A stretch of DNA of 64,000 nt, taken from assembly GCA_018401875.1 (NCBI GenBank), contig JAGYJZ010000012.1, forward strand, positions 1 to 64,000, in the 5' to 3' direction. Position 1 is the first letter of the stretch. Every line of letters starts with the position of its first letter. Of this stretch, positions 1 through 64,000 are shown piece by piece. The position numbers and the translations under genes are program-made. Below the pieces are notes generated by a model that was not told the origin of the DNA, searched no databases, and saw nothing but the letters and a program-made list of their open reading frames with translations. The stretch is from Salibacteraceae bacterium. GTDB taxonomy: Bacteria > Bacteroidota > Bacteroidia > Flavobacteriales_G > Salibacteraceae.

Positions 1-1067
1 CTGGTTCTATTGATACCGTTACACTAGGTACTGTAAATATTACTGGTAACTCGGAATTAGTGGCTTGGACAAGCATGCCTAATGGCAACGTAGATACCAT
101 AAACAGCAACGATACTGCTAGCCGCGCAATTGATTCAGTAATAACCATCAACCTTGATCTTGGTCCTGATAAGCCTGTTTGCTCTGGCTCTTTTACAATA
201 CTTGAAAACCTAGGTTCAACGCAAGTATTCAATACTTACTCTTGGAGCAATGGAAGTGCTTCACCAACAATTATCACCAACACGCCTGGCACTTACAGTG
301 TTACTGTTACCCTCGCGCAGTGTTTGGCCGCTGATCAAATTGTAGTTACAGCTGGTGAAACCCCTGTTGTAGACCTAGGTCCAGACTCTACGTATTGTGC
401 GAATGACTTTGTACTTGACGCAGGTGGAGACGGTGCCATCTTTGTGTGGTCTGACGGAAACAACACTCAATTAAACACCGTTACCACATCAGGAAATTAC
501 AGTGTCACTGTTACCAGTGACGATGGATGCGTAACCGTTGACGACATCAACCTGACCCTATTGGATGTTCCAGCTGTTGACCTTGGTGAGGATTTCAAAT
601 TGTGTATCCCCTTCAACCAAACCCGACTGTTAACTGCAGGAAATACCTTCTCTTCTTACTTATGGAGCACTGGAGCAACCACATCAAACATCGTGGTGGG
701 TAATGGTGTTACCACAGCAGGACTTGAAACCTACTCGGTTACCGTAACAGCTAACAATGGCTGTGAAGGAAGTGATGCGATTGTAGCGGAATATTCGCTT
801 TGTGTCGGTTTGGATGAAACCCAAGAAAATGCAGGTGTTAGCCTCTTCCCTAACCCAGCCAACGAGTTGGTGACGTTTGCGGCTTCAAGTTCAACGATTT
901 CTGAAGTGCAACTTTTCGACCTTACAGGAAAACTCATTCACAATCAAAAACTAGCTAACTCAGCGAATAGACTAGATTTGAATGTTTCATCGTTTGCCGT
1001 GGGAACATACATCGTAAAAGTGATCACCGATGAAGAAACTGTTCTTCGAAGATTGATTGTACAATAG
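1..1067 (+). CDS. T9SS type A sorting-domain cell-surface protein, C-terminal part (5' truncated by window)
   Basis: The reading frame is open from base 3, so the gene starts upstream of the window and at least 354 C-terminal residues are seen. The visible part holds three or four Ig/PKD-like repeats of about 85 residues, each with the pattern 'YxWSxG...TxYSVTVT' and 'VDLGxD', as in many Bacteroidota adhesins. The last ~75 residues are a type A T9SS sorting domain: LFPNPANE, then a beta-rich part with FDLTGKL and GTYIVKV, ending in RRLIVQ. The protein is therefore expected to be exported by the Sec system and then anchored or released through T9SS. A rho-independent terminator follows directly. 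The function of the N-terminal part cannot be judged. Confidence 0.85.
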   Translation, partial: GSIDTVTLGTVNITGNSELVAWTSMPNGNVDTINSNDTASRAIDSVITINLDLGPDKPVCSGSFTILENLGSTQVFNTYSWSNGSASPTIITNTPGTYSVTVTLAQCLAADQIVVTAGETPVVDLGPDSTYCANDFVLDAGGDGAIFVWSDGNNTQLNTVTTSGNYSVTVTSDDGCVTVDDINLTLLDVPAVDLGEDFKLCIPFNQTRLLTAGNTFSSYLWSTGATTSNIVVGNGVTTAGLETYSVTVTANNGCEGSDAIVAEYSLCVGLDETQENAGVSLFPNPANELVTFAASSSTISEVQLFDLTGKLIHNQKLANSANRLDLNVSSFAVGTYIVKVITDEETVLRRLIVQ

Positions 1068-1088
1068 ATTACCTACTAACTATTTTGA

Positions 1089-1126
1089 GAAGGCTCTTAT
1101 TGAAAGATAAGGGCCTTTTCTTTTTG
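1089..1126 (+). terminator. Rho-independent terminator after the T9SS protein
   Basis: An 11-bp stem (aaggctcttat / ataagggcctt, one G-T pair) with a short loop is followed by a T-rich run (ttttcttttt). It lies 22 bases after the stop codon at 1067. Confidence 0.85.
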
Positions 1127-1161
1127 TAACTAGTATCACACGCATTCAAATTCGTTTCAAA

Positions 1162-1169
1162 TAACTTTG
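1162..1169 (+). promoter_or_regulatory. Bacteroidota -7 promoter element (TAACTTTG)
   Basis: Exact match to TAnnTTTG, ending only 4 bases before the ATG at 1174. No TTG is seen at the usual -33 distance. If used, transcription would start at or next to the start codon. Confidence 0.5.
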
Positions 1170-1173
1170 AACC

Positions 1174-2772
1174 ATGAAATCAACCCTCACCCTAGCCCTG
1201 CTAATGAGTATTGCAGTCTCAGCAATTGCACAATCATTCAACTATAGCCTTTTTCTTGAGCCATTGCCTATCGAAAACCTCGATGGCACACATTCGTATG
1301 CTTTTGGCCAACACGATGGTAAATGGTTGATTATGGGGGGACGAAAGGACGGTATTCACGCCCGGCAACCCTTCAATGCCTTTCCTGCCGCGCAAAACAA
1401 CAATGAAATGATGGTTATCGATCCTGAAAGTGGTCAGGTATGGTCAGCAAACCTTGGAAGCTTGCCTGTCCCTTTGCTCGAGCAATTGCAATCGACCAAC
1501 ATGTGTTTTCATCAATTGGAAGATACACTCTACATCGCTGGTGGCTATGCTTTCAGCAATTCCGCTGCCGATCACATCACTTTTCCATATTTGACGACTG
1601 TCATTGTAAGTCAGACCATTGATGCCATCATCAACAATACAGCTTATTCAGGATTTATTAAACAGACCATGGACTCACGTATGGCGGTGACAGGCGGACA
1701 CTTGGCTTTCATGAACGACCAGTTTATACTTGTTGGCGGGCACCGATTTGACGGACGCTATAACCCAATGGGGCACAACACCTTCGTGCAAACCTACACC
1801 AATGCCATTCGGAAGTTTGGCGTAAACAATTCGGGAAATACTCCGGCCATCTCATCCTTTTCCGAAATTGTGGATGCCGTAAATTTGCACCGAAGAGACT
1901 ACAACCTCATTCCTCAGATATTTCCTGACGGCACCGCGGGTTACTCCATTTCATCGGGCGTTTTTCAAGTCAATGTTGATTTACCCTATTTGTATCCTGT
2001 AGATATTCACAGCAATGGCATCGCAGCGCAAACTTCATTTAATCAATACCTTTCAAATTACCACTCAGCCGTTGCCACGCTTTACGACACCACCAATAGC
2101 ATCAACCACAGCATATTTTTTGGTGGCATGAGCAGGCATTATTATGCCAATGGTGCACTCATTCAAGACGATCAAGTGCCCTTTGTAAAAACAATTTCAC
2201 GCGTAAGCAGAGACGCAAACAACGCGCTTACTGAATACAACTTACCCATCGAGATGCCAAACTACCAAGGTGCCGGTTCCGAATTCTTTCCAGTAGAATC
2301 GTTATTAATGGATGCGCACGAGGTAATCGCCATTGCCGAGACAAGTGCCGACTCTATCATGATCGGTTACATTTATGGCGGAATTAAATCAGAAACAACA
2401 AACCCTTTTACAGCCAACACCACTGCCCAAACCGCAGCAGATGAATCTGTGTTTAAAGTTTGGCTTATTCCTTCGGGAACTGTTGGCACCAAAGCCGTAA
2501 GTTCTTCACATGGCTTTGATGTGGAAGTATTCCCCAATCCTTCACATGGCGCTGTACGTGCCAAGATCACCGCCCCGTCATCAGGCGAAGGTTCTATTTT
2601 AGTGGTAGATTCTCGTGGAAACTTAGTCCATGATTTGCTCATCAATCGCATCAACGAAGGAGAAAATGAGGTCGGGATTTTTGAAGCCGGAATATTAGCC
2701 AGTGGCGTTTATATTTTCACCTTTTCGCTCGATGATCAGTTTTTTGACCAATGCCGTGTGGTGATTAAATAG
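1174..2772 (+). CDS. Kelch-like beta-propeller protein with T9SS type A sorting domain
   Basis: 532 residues. Residues 1-19 form a signal peptide ending in AIAQ. The body has Kelch/galactose-oxidase-like blades, for example 'KWLIMGGRKDGIH', 'DTLYIAGGYAFSN', 'QFILVGGHRFDGRYN' and 'HSIFFGGMSRHYY', which suggests a secreted beta-propeller. The last ~80 residues are a T9SS type A sorting domain (VEVFPNPSHG ... GVYIFTFSLDDQ ... CRVVIK). The propeller may bind ligand or act as an enzyme, but no catalytic residues can be assigned from the sequence. It stands alone between a terminator and the NfeD gene 86 bases downstream. Confidence 0.85.
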   Translation: MKSTLTLALLMSIAVSAIAQSFNYSLFLEPLPIENLDGTHSYAFGQHDGKWLIMGGRKDGIHARQPFNAFPAAQNNNEMMVIDPESGQVWSANLGSLPVPLLEQLQSTNMCFHQLEDTLYIAGGYAFSNSAADHITFPYLTTVIVSQTIDAIINNTAYSGFIKQTMDSRMAVTGGHLAFMNDQFILVGGHRFDGRYNPMGHNTFVQTYTNAIRKFGVNNSGNTPAISSFSEIVDAVNLHRRDYNLIPQIFPDGTAGYSISSGVFQVNVDLPYLYPVDIHSNGIAAQTSFNQYLSNYHSAVATLYDTTNSINHSIFFGGMSRHYYANGALIQDDQVPFVKTISRVSRDANNALTEYNLPIEMPNYQGAGSEFFPVESLLMDAHEVIAIAETSADSIMIGYIYGGIKSETTNPFTANTTAQTAADESVFKVWLIPSGTVGTKAVSSSHGFDVEVFPNPSHGAVRAKITAPSSGEGSILVVDSRGNLVHDLLINRINEGENEVGIFEAGILASGVYIFTFSLDDQFFDQCRVVIK

Positions 2773-9745: not shown

Positions 9746-10630
9746 GTCAGCATCTAAACACATACATTCCAATTAATTGCGCATTTATTGTTTGTTTTTG
9801 GCGTTCGTATACTTGCATTTTACACCAGCCGAAACACCAACCAAAAATTACAAAGAAGTATGTCTTTGCCAACACTAAAAAAAGCCAATGGCCAACATTT
9901 TGGATAAGCATTAGCTAGCGAAATGGTAAAACCTGCCTTACCGTCAGGCGGTTCAAGGTCGATGCATTTAATAAACTTTTGTGGAGGAGGACACGCAATC
10001 GCCTTTGAATCCATGTCTGCGCATCTAGGCGCTTCTGTTCTTTTACTTTGACCGCACGCCCACCCCTCTTCGTTTCTACCATTCCACGATTCGTCTCATT
10101 CCCTCACAAAAATGGACTCGCCACCTCTGGAAAGTCCATCTATAGCGAACGTGGCATGCGCAACGCTGGCCTTAGCGGACATTGATCCTAGCAATCCAGA
10201 TAGCTATCGGGATTGCGGTGCGGAGCGCGCTGGTTTCTAGCATCTTTTCTACCGCCTTGCGTATTGGCGAAGTGAAGCTTTGGCATGTTCCACCCTCATA
10301 CATTTATAGGGACGCCAATTATTGAAGACTGGCAGTAAAACAAATAAAACCCAAGTGGGGAAATTGCAGCATTGAAAAAAGAAGAATTAATCGCTTACCA
10401 GTAGGCACCGGAGAATGGACATACTAACATATAGACCGCGCATTTGGCAAGCATCCAGAATACTTTCGGAACCTAAAACACACAAGCCACCGCACAGACT
10501 AAAGCTGAACGTCAACGTATGTCTGCCCCACGCACAAACAGGACAGAACTCCGAAATTCCGTCTTACCTTAGCAAAGCCGTTCGAGCATTGAAAAAAGAC
10601 GAAAGGCAATGCACATAACAGGAATCTACC
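9746..10630. other. 885-base stretch without a convincing gene
   Basis: Only short frames without recognisable motifs are found on either strand (for example 64 codons at 9820-10014 minus and 67 codons at 10415-10618 plus). The stretch contains a 24-bp palindrome (10192-10215) and the phrase gcattgaaaaaaga twice (near 10370 and 10586). It looks like decayed or imported DNA leading up to the Kunitz gene. No tRNA, terminator or promoter of good quality was seen. Confidence 0.5.
10192..10215. repeat. 24-bp near-perfect palindrome centred on gatagctatc
   Basis: The two 12-base halves are reverse complements with one mismatch (core gatagctatc, flanks caatcc / ggattg). Palindromes with the core CCCGATAGCTATCGGG are familiar as dispersed intergenic repeats in Bacteroidota genomes; whether it is repeated here needs the whole genome. 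Confidence 0.6.
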
Positions 10631-10882
10631 ATGAAAAATACCTTGGCTTCTTTCATCCTTCCGTTCATCATCCTGCTGTTGGTGGTGCAAGTAGAGCAAG
10701 ACAGTGTAAAACCAGATAGATGCACCTTGGTGCCAGACGCTGGTCACTGCAGGGCCGCTTTCCCGAAATTTTACTTTGAAAAAAATGAAAAAAAGTGCAA
10801 GCAGTTTATATGGGGCGGTTGTGGTGGAGTGGTTCCTTTTAACACCCTAGAAGAATGTGAACAGCAGTGTGAATGTGAATGA
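10631..10882 (+). CDS. Secreted Kunitz/BPTI-type serine protease inhibitor
   Basis: 83 residues: a hydrophobic signal peptide (about 1-20) followed by one Kunitz domain. The six Cys are at 31, 40, 56, 64, 76 and 80; their spacing 9/16/8/12/4 compares with 9/16/8/13/4 in bovine pancreatic trypsin inhibitor (BPTI). Aligned hallmarks are 'PDAGHCRA' (P1 residue Arg41, predicting trypsin-like targets), 'FYF' for the Tyr21-Phe22-Tyr23 strand, 'FIWGGCGG' for FVYGGC, and 'FNTLEECEQQC' for the C-terminal helix. The conserved Asn43 of BPTI and one residue are missing between the fourth and fifth Cys (GCGGVVPF). A seventh Cys (82) follows the domain. The gene stands alone with its own terminator, between unassigned DNA and a repeat array near tRNA-Ser. 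The target protease is unknown. Confidence 0.88.
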   Translation: MKNTLASFILPFIILLLVVQVEQDSVKPDRCTLVPDAGHCRAAFPKFYFEKNEKKCKQFIWGGCGGVVPFNTLEECEQQCECE

Positions 10883-10890
10883 CATTTGAC

Positions 10891-11230
10891 TTCAGCACTG
10901 CAAATCAACCATCGCTGGTGCGATGGTTTTTTTTTAAGACCTTTCTGCGCTTGAACTTCGTTCAGACTGGAATTATTCAGGATTATTCCCTAAGGGAATG
11001 ATCCCTGTTGGGGGAGGTTCAGAACTGCAAATCAACCATCGCTTATGCGCTGGTGTTTTGTTTTAAGACCTTTCTGCGCTTGAACTTCGTTCAGACTGGA
11101 ATTATTCAGGATTATTCCCTGAGGGAATGATCCCTGTTGGGGGGAGGCTTAGAACTGCAAATCAACCATCGCTTATGCGCTGGTGTTTTGTTTTAAGACC
11201 TTTCTGCGCTTGAACTTCGTTCAGACTGGA
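10891..11230. repeat. Tandem array of a ~127-130-bp hairpin-rich unit, about 2.6 copies
   Basis: Unit 1 is 10891-11017, unit 2 is 11018-11147 and a partial unit 3 is 11148-11230. Copies are nearly identical apart from a few substitutions and small indels. Each full unit contains a potential hairpin accatcgc/gcgatggt (intact as a terminator in unit 1, one mismatch in unit 2), tgaac-ttc-gttca, and an 11-bp stem with a 3-base loop (10980-11004 and 11109-11133; ggattattccc / gggaatgatcc). There is no coding frame through the units. Confidence 0.9.
10908..10935 (+). terminator. Rho-independent terminator of the Kunitz gene
   Basis: Perfect 8-bp stem accatcgc / gcgatggt with a 4-base loop followed by a run of nine T. 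It lies inside the first tandem-repeat unit, 26 bases after the stop codon. Confidence 0.85.
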
Positions 11231-11247
11231 AAGGTCTTAAAACAAAA
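11186..11247. repeat. 18-19-bp inverted repeat closing the tandem array
   Basis: Left arm 11186-11203 (ttttgttttaagaccttt) lies in the third repeat unit; its perfect reverse complement is at 11230-11247, just outside the array. One more C-G pair extends the stem inward. The right arm exists only once, so an inverted fragment of the unit appears to mark the end of the array. Confidence 0.85.
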
Positions 11248-11276: not shown

Positions 11277-11279
11277 CTG

Positions 11280-11364
11280 CGGAGAGTGAGGGATTCGAAC
11301 CCCCGGACCCGTGAAGATCAATAGTTTTCAAGACTACCGCATTCGACCACTCTGCCAACTCTCC
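11280..11364 (-). tRNA. tRNA-Ser, anticodon TGA
   Basis: 85 bases. On the minus strand the acceptor stem GGAGAGT pairs with ACTCTCC, followed by the Ser discriminator G. A D-arm, the anticodon loop CTTGAAA (anticodon TGA), a long variable arm typical of class II tRNAs, and the T-loop GGTTCGAATCC are all present. CCA is not encoded. Confidence 0.95.
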
Positions 11365-62118: not shown

Positions 62119-63305
62119 TCTTGGTAATACGCTAACAATTGATTGAGGTAACTGCTTACTGCTCGGGTTTCAATATCGTAAACGAACAAGCCGTTGTTGG
62201 TTCCAATAAACACTGTATTTCCGTAAATATCCATGTCTTGAACCAAGCTGCTATTGGTGAGCTCATTTCCTGACTCGATGACCATAACATCGCAGTCGCC
62301 CGATACTGCGTTATACGAAATTATATATCCCAACGCATAAATTGACTGGTTTGGTTGGCCTGAAGCGCTGTATGCGTAAAGTCGAACTACATTTTCATTC
62401 CAATCGACCAACTTGATAATTCCTCTTGAAAATTCTGGCATAGCACAACTAGCCTCTATTTGGAAACTTTGCACTTCGTTCTCATTAATTTTGGTAGTGA
62501 GGATATTTTGCAATGGTGAGTTAAAATCAGGAATTTTATCGAATCCAAATACGGTTCCGTCTGAGCTTAAGTAAGGCTGATAGATCGTTTTAAATTTAAA
62601 CGTATTTCCCACTTTACCCAATAGAGTGAATTGTGTGTTTGCCTTGGAAATATTGGTTACCAAAAATTGAGGATTGGTTGCGATGATCAAATCGCCTTGC
62701 GGAGTAAAGACGCTGTTGGGGGCTGCTACATTTTCACTTTTGATAATCATATCGGTCTGAAATTCCTCCCAAGTATTGTTTTCATTGCCAATAAATTTAT
62801 AGATACCAATGAATAAATCAGTTGAAAACCCGCTGGATGGTCCGGCCCAAAACTCTTTATAAAAGCCAATTCTATAGAGCTCGCCATTATTGGAAAGTGT
62901 GTATGAAAAGTAGTTTGACGTTGAGATATTAAACTGCGATCGATCGGTATGAATTTTTAATCGTTTGTTTCTATCGAAGGTTAAAAAAATCGAATCTTGA
63001 ATCACCCAAAACGTTTCTGTAGCGCCTGTATAAAGCACCTCTGAATTAGGCCAATCTATAAAACTCAATTCAGGAAACCGCGAGGCATCAAATATCACTT
63101 GCTGTTTCTCATCGCCATAGAGCAACAAAACGCCTTCGTCTGTTGCAATAAATGCAGCTTTCTCTTGGTCAAAGCATTCTACTTTCCTCACAAAAGACTG
63201 CACCAAATCAGGGAGCTCAAATGGTTTTAATACTACTTCTTTTACACACGACCCCAAAACCAAAAGAGTGAAAATCGTAAAAGTTATGTACTTCAATCTA
63301 TTCAT
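62115..63305 (-). CDS. Propeller-like lipoprotein of unknown function
   Basis: 396 residues. Lipobox 'LLVLGSC' (Cys20). The body has strand-rich segments spaced like a beta-propeller ('AAFIATDEGVLLLYGDEKQQVIFDASRF', 'DMDIYGNTVFIGTNNGLFVYDIETRAVSSY'), the latter like two-component-regulator propeller repeats. Follows the serine protease gene with 8 bases overlap. Partner or substrate unknown. Confidence 0.6.
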   Translation of the reverse strand: MNRLKYITFTIFTLLVLGSCVKEVVLKPFELPDLVQSFVRKVECFDQEKAAFIATDEGVLLLYGDEKQQVIFDASRFPELSFIDWPNSEVLYTGATETFWVIQDSIFLTFDRNKRLKIHTDRSQFNISTSNYFSYTLSNNGELYRIGFYKEFWAGPSSGFSTDLFIGIYKFIGNENNTWEEFQTDMIIKSENVAAPNSVFTPQGDLIIATNPQFLVTNISKANTQFTLLGKVGNTFKFKTIYQPYLSSDGTVFGFDKIPDFNSPLQNILTTKINENEVQSFQIEASCAMPEFSRGIIKLVDWNENVVRLYAYSASGQPNQSIYALGYIISYNAVSGDCDVMVIESGNELTNSSLVQDMDIYGNTVFIGTNNGLFVYDIETRAVSSYLNQLLAYYQE

Positions 63306-64000
63306 ACTTAAGTCCTAAGACGTTGTATAAGTACCTTGCGTCAATGGCGAATCCGAGTCCTTCAACCCCTTCATCGATTAATTTAGCGTTGATGATTCCA
63401 ACGATCTCACCGTTCATATTGATGAGTGGACTTCCGGAATTTCCGGGACTAATTTTGGTGTCGGTTTGAAGAATTTTCACTCCATCATTGGATCTTTTAC
63501 CACTGATAATTCCTTTGCTGACACTCTGACCCAATTCTTTAAATCCGGGTGCACCTACCACAAATACTTCATCACCTTGCCTTACATTCTCATCGTCTTT
63601 AGCAATTGGCAACGCTGTTAGCCCTCCCGCACGCACTTTAATCAATGCCAAGTCGTACTTTTCTGATGAAGTAATAATATCTCCCGGCAAGATGATTCCA
63701 TTGGCAAACTGCACATCGATGTATTTTGCTTTTTCTATGACGTGATGATTAGTTACGATGTAGCCATTTGCGCTCACCACTACTCCACTTCCGTGACCTC
63801 GATCATCGATAATCACCGTTACGCTTGCGTTGGTTGACAAGGCAACTAAATCTGCAAAGACGTCCATTTTTTCGAGCTGCACGAATGGAATTTTCACTTC
63901 TTCATCGAACAAAATTTCATCCTCAAACAGGTCGCTCTGCACAACCTTTTCTGATTGAATATGGGTTGAAACGCTGTCTTCGTCTAACTCTTCAGTTTTA
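63298..64000 (-). CDS. Trypsin-like serine protease, S1C (DegP/HtrA) type, truncated by window end
   Basis: The frame is open to base 64000, so the N-terminus lies beyond the window; at least 233 residues are seen (an internal GTG at 63942 is not needed). Catalytic triad: His in 'YIVTNHHVIEKA', Asp in 'EKYDLALIKV', Ser in 'KISPGNSGSPLINMNG'. No PDZ domain follows: it ends ~20 residues after 'GLGFAIDARYLYNVLGLKYE'. Acidic N-terminal visible part ('EELDEDSVSTHIQ'). First visible gene of the overlapping operon with the lipoprotein, barrel protein and accC. Confidence 0.9.
   Translation of the reverse strand, partial: KTEELDEDSVSTHIQSEKVVQSDLFEDEILFDEEVKIPFVQLEKMDVFADLVALSTNASVTVIIDDRGHGSGVVVSANGYIVTNHHVIEKAKYIDVQFANGIILPGDIITSSEKYDLALIKVRAGGLTALPIAKDDENVRQGDEVFVVGAPGFKELGQSVSKGIISGKRSNDGVKILQTDTKISPGNSGSPLINMNGEIVGIINAKLIDEGVEGLGFAIDARYLYNVLGLKYE

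Follow-up and report, generated by a model that had tools for sequence, protein, structure and literature searches.

A single-domain Kunitz/BPTI protein with an Arg P1 residue in a Salibacteraceae genome and its lipoprotein relatives in the Bacteroidota

The Kunitz/BPTI inhibitors, among them TFPI, boophilin, SmCI, APPI, and BPTI, are regarded as essentially an animal family. The traits that these animal proteins share with the product of the gene described here (ORF 10631-10882) are (i) the six-Cys framework, (ii) Gly12, (iii) Arg or Lys at P1, (iv) the GGC motif, and (v) a C-terminal helix. In contrast to them, the bacterial protein has one residue fewer from Cys4 to Cys5 and VVPF in place of NxNxF, lacks Asn43, carries Trp at position 35, and consists of a single domain with a bacterial export sequence. 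The gene lies in a window of 64,000 nucleotides that opens contig C4 of a Salibacteraceae genome (2.62 Mb in 36 contigs, 82% complete).

Kunitz domains in bacterial genomes are already known (PMC11511053), and the Pfam model finds bacterial ones easily. F6W77_19310, a protein with five Kunitz domains, is assigned to Acinetobacter baumannii; one of the domains, KABP1, inhibits factors Xa and XIa as a recombinant protein, and its P1 Arg has been proposed to be decisive (PMC11511053). Like ORF 10631-10882, it comes from a bacterial assembly and has Arg at P1; however, its five tandem domains are described as of the classical animal type, whereas the present protein has one domain of a Bacteroidota clade. 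By analogy, KABP1 may serve as a precedent for activity of Kunitz domains from bacterial assemblies. No account of a Bacteroidota Kunitz lipoprotein family turned up in the open-access papers searched. The novelty of ORF 10631-10882 lies in the bacterial architecture of a known domain, and inhibition is a prediction. The best overall explanation, with a probability of roughly 0.7, is an exported bacterial Kunitz domain whose Arg-P1 loop would inhibit a trypsin-like serine protease.

Kunitz membership and modelled fold

The encoded protein (MKNTLASFILPFIILLLVVQVEQDSVKPDRCTLVPDAGHCRAAFPKFYFEKNEKKCKQFIWGGCGGVVPFNTLEECEQQCECE) has exactly the coordinates and 83-residue translation given in an earlier note on this DNA, which had proposed a secreted Kunitz inhibitor (Table 1). 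Reading the translation also recovers the Arg after Cys2 (P1) and the motifs FYF, FIWGGC, and EECEQQC listed there, as well as the Cys-to-Cys distances of 9/16/8/12/4. The count of six Cys has to be corrected to seven, the extra one being Cys82 in the C-terminal ECE.

Table 1. Features of the Kunitz locus and the DegP/trypsin-like gene, in window positions
Feature	Positions	Strand	Remarks
Kunitz-domain gene	10631..10882	+	83 aa, ATG to TGA
Hydrophobic N-terminal export sequence, aa 1-25	10631..10705	+	Neither lipobox nor evident signal peptidase I site
Kunitz/BPTI domain (PF00014), aa 30-81	10718..10873	+	
P1 residue Arg41 (BPTI position 15)	10751..10753	+	Codon AGG
GGCGGVVPF loop	10814..10840	+	One residue shorter than in animal Kunitz, no Asn43; clade-wide
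Cys82	10874..10876	+	Extra C-terminal Cys without N-terminal partner
130-bp tandem array	10891..11231	.	2.6 copies; first copy holds the terminator
Intrinsic terminator	10907..10935	+	Perfect 9-bp stem and run of T; directly follows the stop codon
tRNA-Ser(TGA)	11279..11364	-	3' end faces the Kunitz gene; edge of genus-variable region
DegP/trypsin-like gene	63298..63942		One of two in the genome

In a Pfam search, the protein matches all 53 positions of the PF00014 profile with an E value of 1.1e-13 and 51.6 bits, against a curated gathering score of 21 bits. Among PDB entries, phmmer matches 110 distinct sequences with E values of at most 0.01 (best 1e-22), headed by SmCI, TFPI, and boophilin; the match is far above chance. 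NCBIfam has no model for this protein. The AlphaFold (AF2) model, built from 16 bacterial sequences, has a domain pLDDT of ~92 and displays the BPTI fold, a beta hairpin (strands at 44-50 and 55-61) followed by a C-terminal helix (73-80). Foldseek matches it to solved inhibitor-class Kunitz structures with E values down to 4e-6, mostly at an rmsd of 1.2-1.5 Å over ~54 residues, and with target TM-scores of ~0.8-0.88 on single-domain targets. All six framework Cys align with those of solved Kunitz structures, and by homology the disulphides are expected to be 1-6, 2-4, and 3-5.

Asn43, which is typical of but not strictly defining for Kunitz domains, is absent. Among the Foldseek matches is 1nag, a crevice-forming BPTI mutant entry from a series that includes N43G; because this solved structure is matched by the model, absence of Asn43 need not disrupt the fold. 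Both the Kunitz membership and the BPTI-like fold proposed earlier are borne out by the profile score and the structure prediction, and the assignment of ORF 10631-10882 as a genuine bacterial Kunitz domain (PF00014, MEROPS I2 type) is well supported.

Two Bacteroidota clades and the reactive-site loop

Kunitz relatives of ORF 10631-10882 occur in its genus, family, and class. PF00014 scores above its cutoff in 10 of the 35 family genomes, in 31 of 395 genomes sampled from the class, and in 6 of 395 genomes from the phylum, as opposed to none of 14 control genomes. The class-level sample contains two bacterial clades. Clade A (L003-L009, L011-L016, and L020-L022) includes ORF 10631-10882, and nearly all of its members have the Cys spacing 9/16/8/12/3-4 and the motif GGCxGxVPF, with one residue fewer in L022. 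Almost all of the clade shares the one-residue deletion and the missing Asn43, so that the description of this protein as a divergent variant was misplaced. Whole-protein identities to clade A relatives are 30-53%, with up to 67% in the domain; however, the relatives carry a lipobox Cys and mostly other P1 residues, often Glu. The only much longer architecture seen is that of L016 (genome G354), in which the Kunitz domain is C-terminal in a 177-residue lipoprotein.

Clade B (L010, L017, L018, and L023-L041) likewise exceeds the PF00014 cutoff, with 22-36 bits. Unlike ORF 10631-10882, its members are lipoproteins with a lipobox, a spacing of mostly 10/16/8/11/3 (9/16/8/11/3 in L039), the motif YSGCxxxGF, an extra tail Cys pair, and mostly Gln at P1. 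The tail pair is present in all members aligned, and the clade is common in the same class as clade A. The predicted clade B structure is of poor quality (pLDDT 66) and gives no Foldseek match under 0.001, so the fold is assigned from the profile score. The closest relative pair has a dN of 0.020 and a dS of 0.346 (dN/dS ~0.06), and the Kunitz family is therefore constrained: single-domain Kunitz lipoproteins form a Bacteroidota clade on which purifying selection acts.

Across the 16 clade A domains, Gly12, Cys14, Gly36, Gly37, and Cys38 do not vary, and 15 have Ala at P1'. The columns of greatest variability include P1 (Glu in 8, Leu, Arg, and Lys in 2 each, Tyr and Asn in 1 each), P3, and position 39. 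A fixed scaffold with a variable P1 is the pattern expected if the loop were tuned to different serine proteases, and the hypervariable P1 suggests that each lineage may be tuned to its own. Non-loop sites 6, 26, and 8 vary as much as the loop sites, and drift at surface sites would also raise the variability of the loop. After export, the domain would fold with its three disulphides, and the exposed loop G-H-C-R-A-A-F, with Arg as its P1 residue, would insert into the active site of a serine protease of the trypsin-like kind, blocking the enzyme as a tight, substrate-like inhibitor. The Arg P1 is what leads to the prediction of trypsin-like targets for ORF 10631-10882.

The trypsin-family matches in the source genome are only two, both HtrA/DegP-like by length and domain match, and such genes are found in almost all 35 family genomes, with or without Kunitz. 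An external target is therefore likelier than one of the cell's own. Among the same 35 genomes, the presence of Kunitz shows no association with that of trypsin-family genes, and clustering of neighbours across genera yields no conserved partner gene pointing to a protease target. Some animal Kunitz proteins have lost inhibition, and the domain could instead be a disulphide-stabilised binding module for adhesion or for binding a receptor or channel. The lack of a conserved protease neighbour would suit such a role, as would a P1 of Glu in half of clade A and Gln in most of clade B, both unusual for classical trypsin inhibitors. Nevertheless, Glu could suit Glu-specific proteases, ORF 10631-10882 itself has Arg, the variability includes P1, P3, and position 39, and the canonical loop scaffold is kept (Gly12, Cys14, small P1', Gly36/37, Cys38), which makes a pure binding module unlikely.

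N-terminus and cellular location

All 38 bacterial Kunitz relatives read are lipoproteins, each with a lipobox Cys ending its signal sequence. No Cys, and hence no lipobox, lies within residues 1-30 of the ORF 10631-10882 protein. In an alignment that is ungapped in this region against L011 and L014, Val21 replaces the lipobox Cys and Ser25 replaces the second Cys, which the relatives have four residues further on. The signal peptide noted earlier stands as a hydrophobic core; a signal peptidase I site is absent between residues 14 and 30 by the simple (-3,-1) rule, which was applied in place of SignalP. Pfam finds no type IX secretion C-terminal sorting domain within the 83 residues. The earlier description of the protein as secreted is thereby weakened: because lipobox and (-3,-1) site are both missing, the product would be released or, alternatively, stay tethered by an uncleaved N-terminal helix.

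The relatives' second N-terminal Cys tends to be found in proteins that also have a Cys directly behind Cys6 (Fisher p 4e-4 on automatic calls, in which the discordant rows L025 and L026 are missed lipoboxes and actually concordant), and this suggests that a fourth disulphide may join their two tails. ORF 10631-10882 keeps only the C-terminal half of this pair, Cys82, which the loss of both N-terminal Cys leaves unpaired, a possible hint of recent change or decay.

Some relatives, L006 and L009 among them, carry C-N-K-D-D, which fits C-X-K-(D/E)2, a surface-export signal described for Capnocytophaga (PMC5080379); other relatives do not fit it. On their lipid anchors, the relatives' domains probably shield the cell surface from proteases, which would come from competitors, predators, or the surroundings. 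An alternative specific to ORF 10631-10882 is that the uncleaved helix keeps the domain at the periplasm or inner membrane, where it would restrain the cell's own HtrA/DegP-like or incoming serine proteases. This alternative draws on the missing lipobox and cleavage site and on the two DegP/trypsin-like genes, one of them within the window, but is improbable, given that genomes lacking Kunitz carry DegP-like genes just as often and that the relatives have lipoprotein anchors, some with surface-export-like motifs.

Genomic context and gene movement

The tRNA and repeat array that had been noted beside the gene are both confirmed. To the right of the Kunitz gene are tRNA-Ser(TGA), FtsY, RimO, and BshC. 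The order tRNA-Ser to FtsY is the same in 8 of 9 genus relatives, the ninth having no tRNA in the piece compared. To the left of the tRNA, the Kunitz gene and its neighbouring TonB receptor are absent from the DNA compared in these relatives (at least 3 kb in most). Assembly contamination by a eukaryote would account for a domain typical of animals; it is refuted by the conserved bacterial context on the same contig, the lack of introns, and homologues across many further Bacteroidota genomes, in part at stable positions, and retains a negligible probability.

The 3' end of a tRNA is a classical integration position. The search for a further copy of the tRNA-Ser 3' end within the window finds none, and an att site is therefore not shown. 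In genome G006, a partial copy of this end (GGCGGAGAGTGAGAGATTACTTTGG...) lies in L076, ~150 bp left of tRNA-Ser, a possible remnant of integration at the same tRNA. The array stretch (10891-11247) includes a perfect 19-nt inverted arm at 11229-11247, and GGGGGAGGTTCAGA-like blocks also occur left of tRNA-Ser in G006 and partly in G011. Rfam near-matches in the array fall below gathering scores and are taken as chance. Near the left end of the window (60-2769), one protein has a Por secretion-tail domain and another a sub-threshold match to it; this suggests a type IX secretion system in the organism.

Upstream of the gene, ~870 bp (9746-10630) lack any long ORF, and their plus-strand translations in three frames (stops read as X) match no Pfam family; this region, higher in G+C than the adjoining TonB gene, is possibly a decayed gene. 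It could also point to decay of ORF 10631-10882 itself, as a functionless gene that lost its lipobox and tail Cys after moving beside tRNA-Ser, a reading that the absent signal peptidase I site and the orphan Cys82 would fit as well. Such decay is not likely, however, in an intact ORF that keeps 13 of the 13 invariant columns of clade A, its hydrophobic export segment, and a terminator directly after the stop codon.

By domain identity, L011 (Chitinophagales bacterium 65-1) and L012 (Paludibacteraceae) come closest, each at 67%, against 52-56% for same-genus copies and 47% for the best animal domain compared. In a weak and little-resolved tree of 52 columns (the domain has ~50 residues), in which alternatives are not rejected, ORF 10631-10882 and L011 form a pair with support of 90/94, and clade A one group with 92/92. 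The animal domains in the tree came from the PDB phmmer search, except BPTI and APPI, whose sequences were entered by hand. Trees that place ORF 10631-10882 with its genus relatives fare worse but are not rejected (p 0.07 with all six, 0.31 with three). A single animal clade is likewise not rejected (AU p 0.52), and for this reason the direction of animal-bacteria transfer is not readable from the tree.

In four genus relatives (G006, G007, G009, and G011), the Kunitz gene lies between what we take, from sequence recognition, to be mfd and a GH3-like glycosidase gene. The same junction is present on contig C8 of the source genome, with mfd 94% identical and no Kunitz gene; its flanking alignments are 115 bp apart versus 412 in G011. 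The copy beside tRNA-Ser is the sole Kunitz gene in this 82% complete genome. The simplest reading is loss at the old mfd/GH3 site and gain beside tRNA-Ser from another Bacteroidota lineage, although relocation with divergence may be an alternative; acquisition or relocation within the Bacteroidota is the best reading overall. The mobility proposed in the earlier note is supported, with a source that looks to be within the Bacteroidota and not an animal (67% versus <=47%). Carriage by phage or plasmid is not supported, as phage records, plasmids, and viral contigs hold no Kunitz homologue.

A broader scenario joins widespread, surface-anchored Kunitz lipoproteins in two Bacteroidota clades, whose P1 would be in an arms race with predator or competitor proteases, to a switch of ORF 10631-10882 from anchored to released Arg-P1 inhibitor by lipobox loss and a horizontal move into a tRNA-Ser hotspot. 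This scenario is tentative and on balance somewhat doubtful. A family with its own loop deletion, tail Cys pair, and variable P1 would provide a model for a bacterial protease-inhibitor arms race. Bacterial Kunitz lipoproteins would also supply new small scaffolds for inhibitor design, and the family would test which way Kunitz domains moved between the domains of life.
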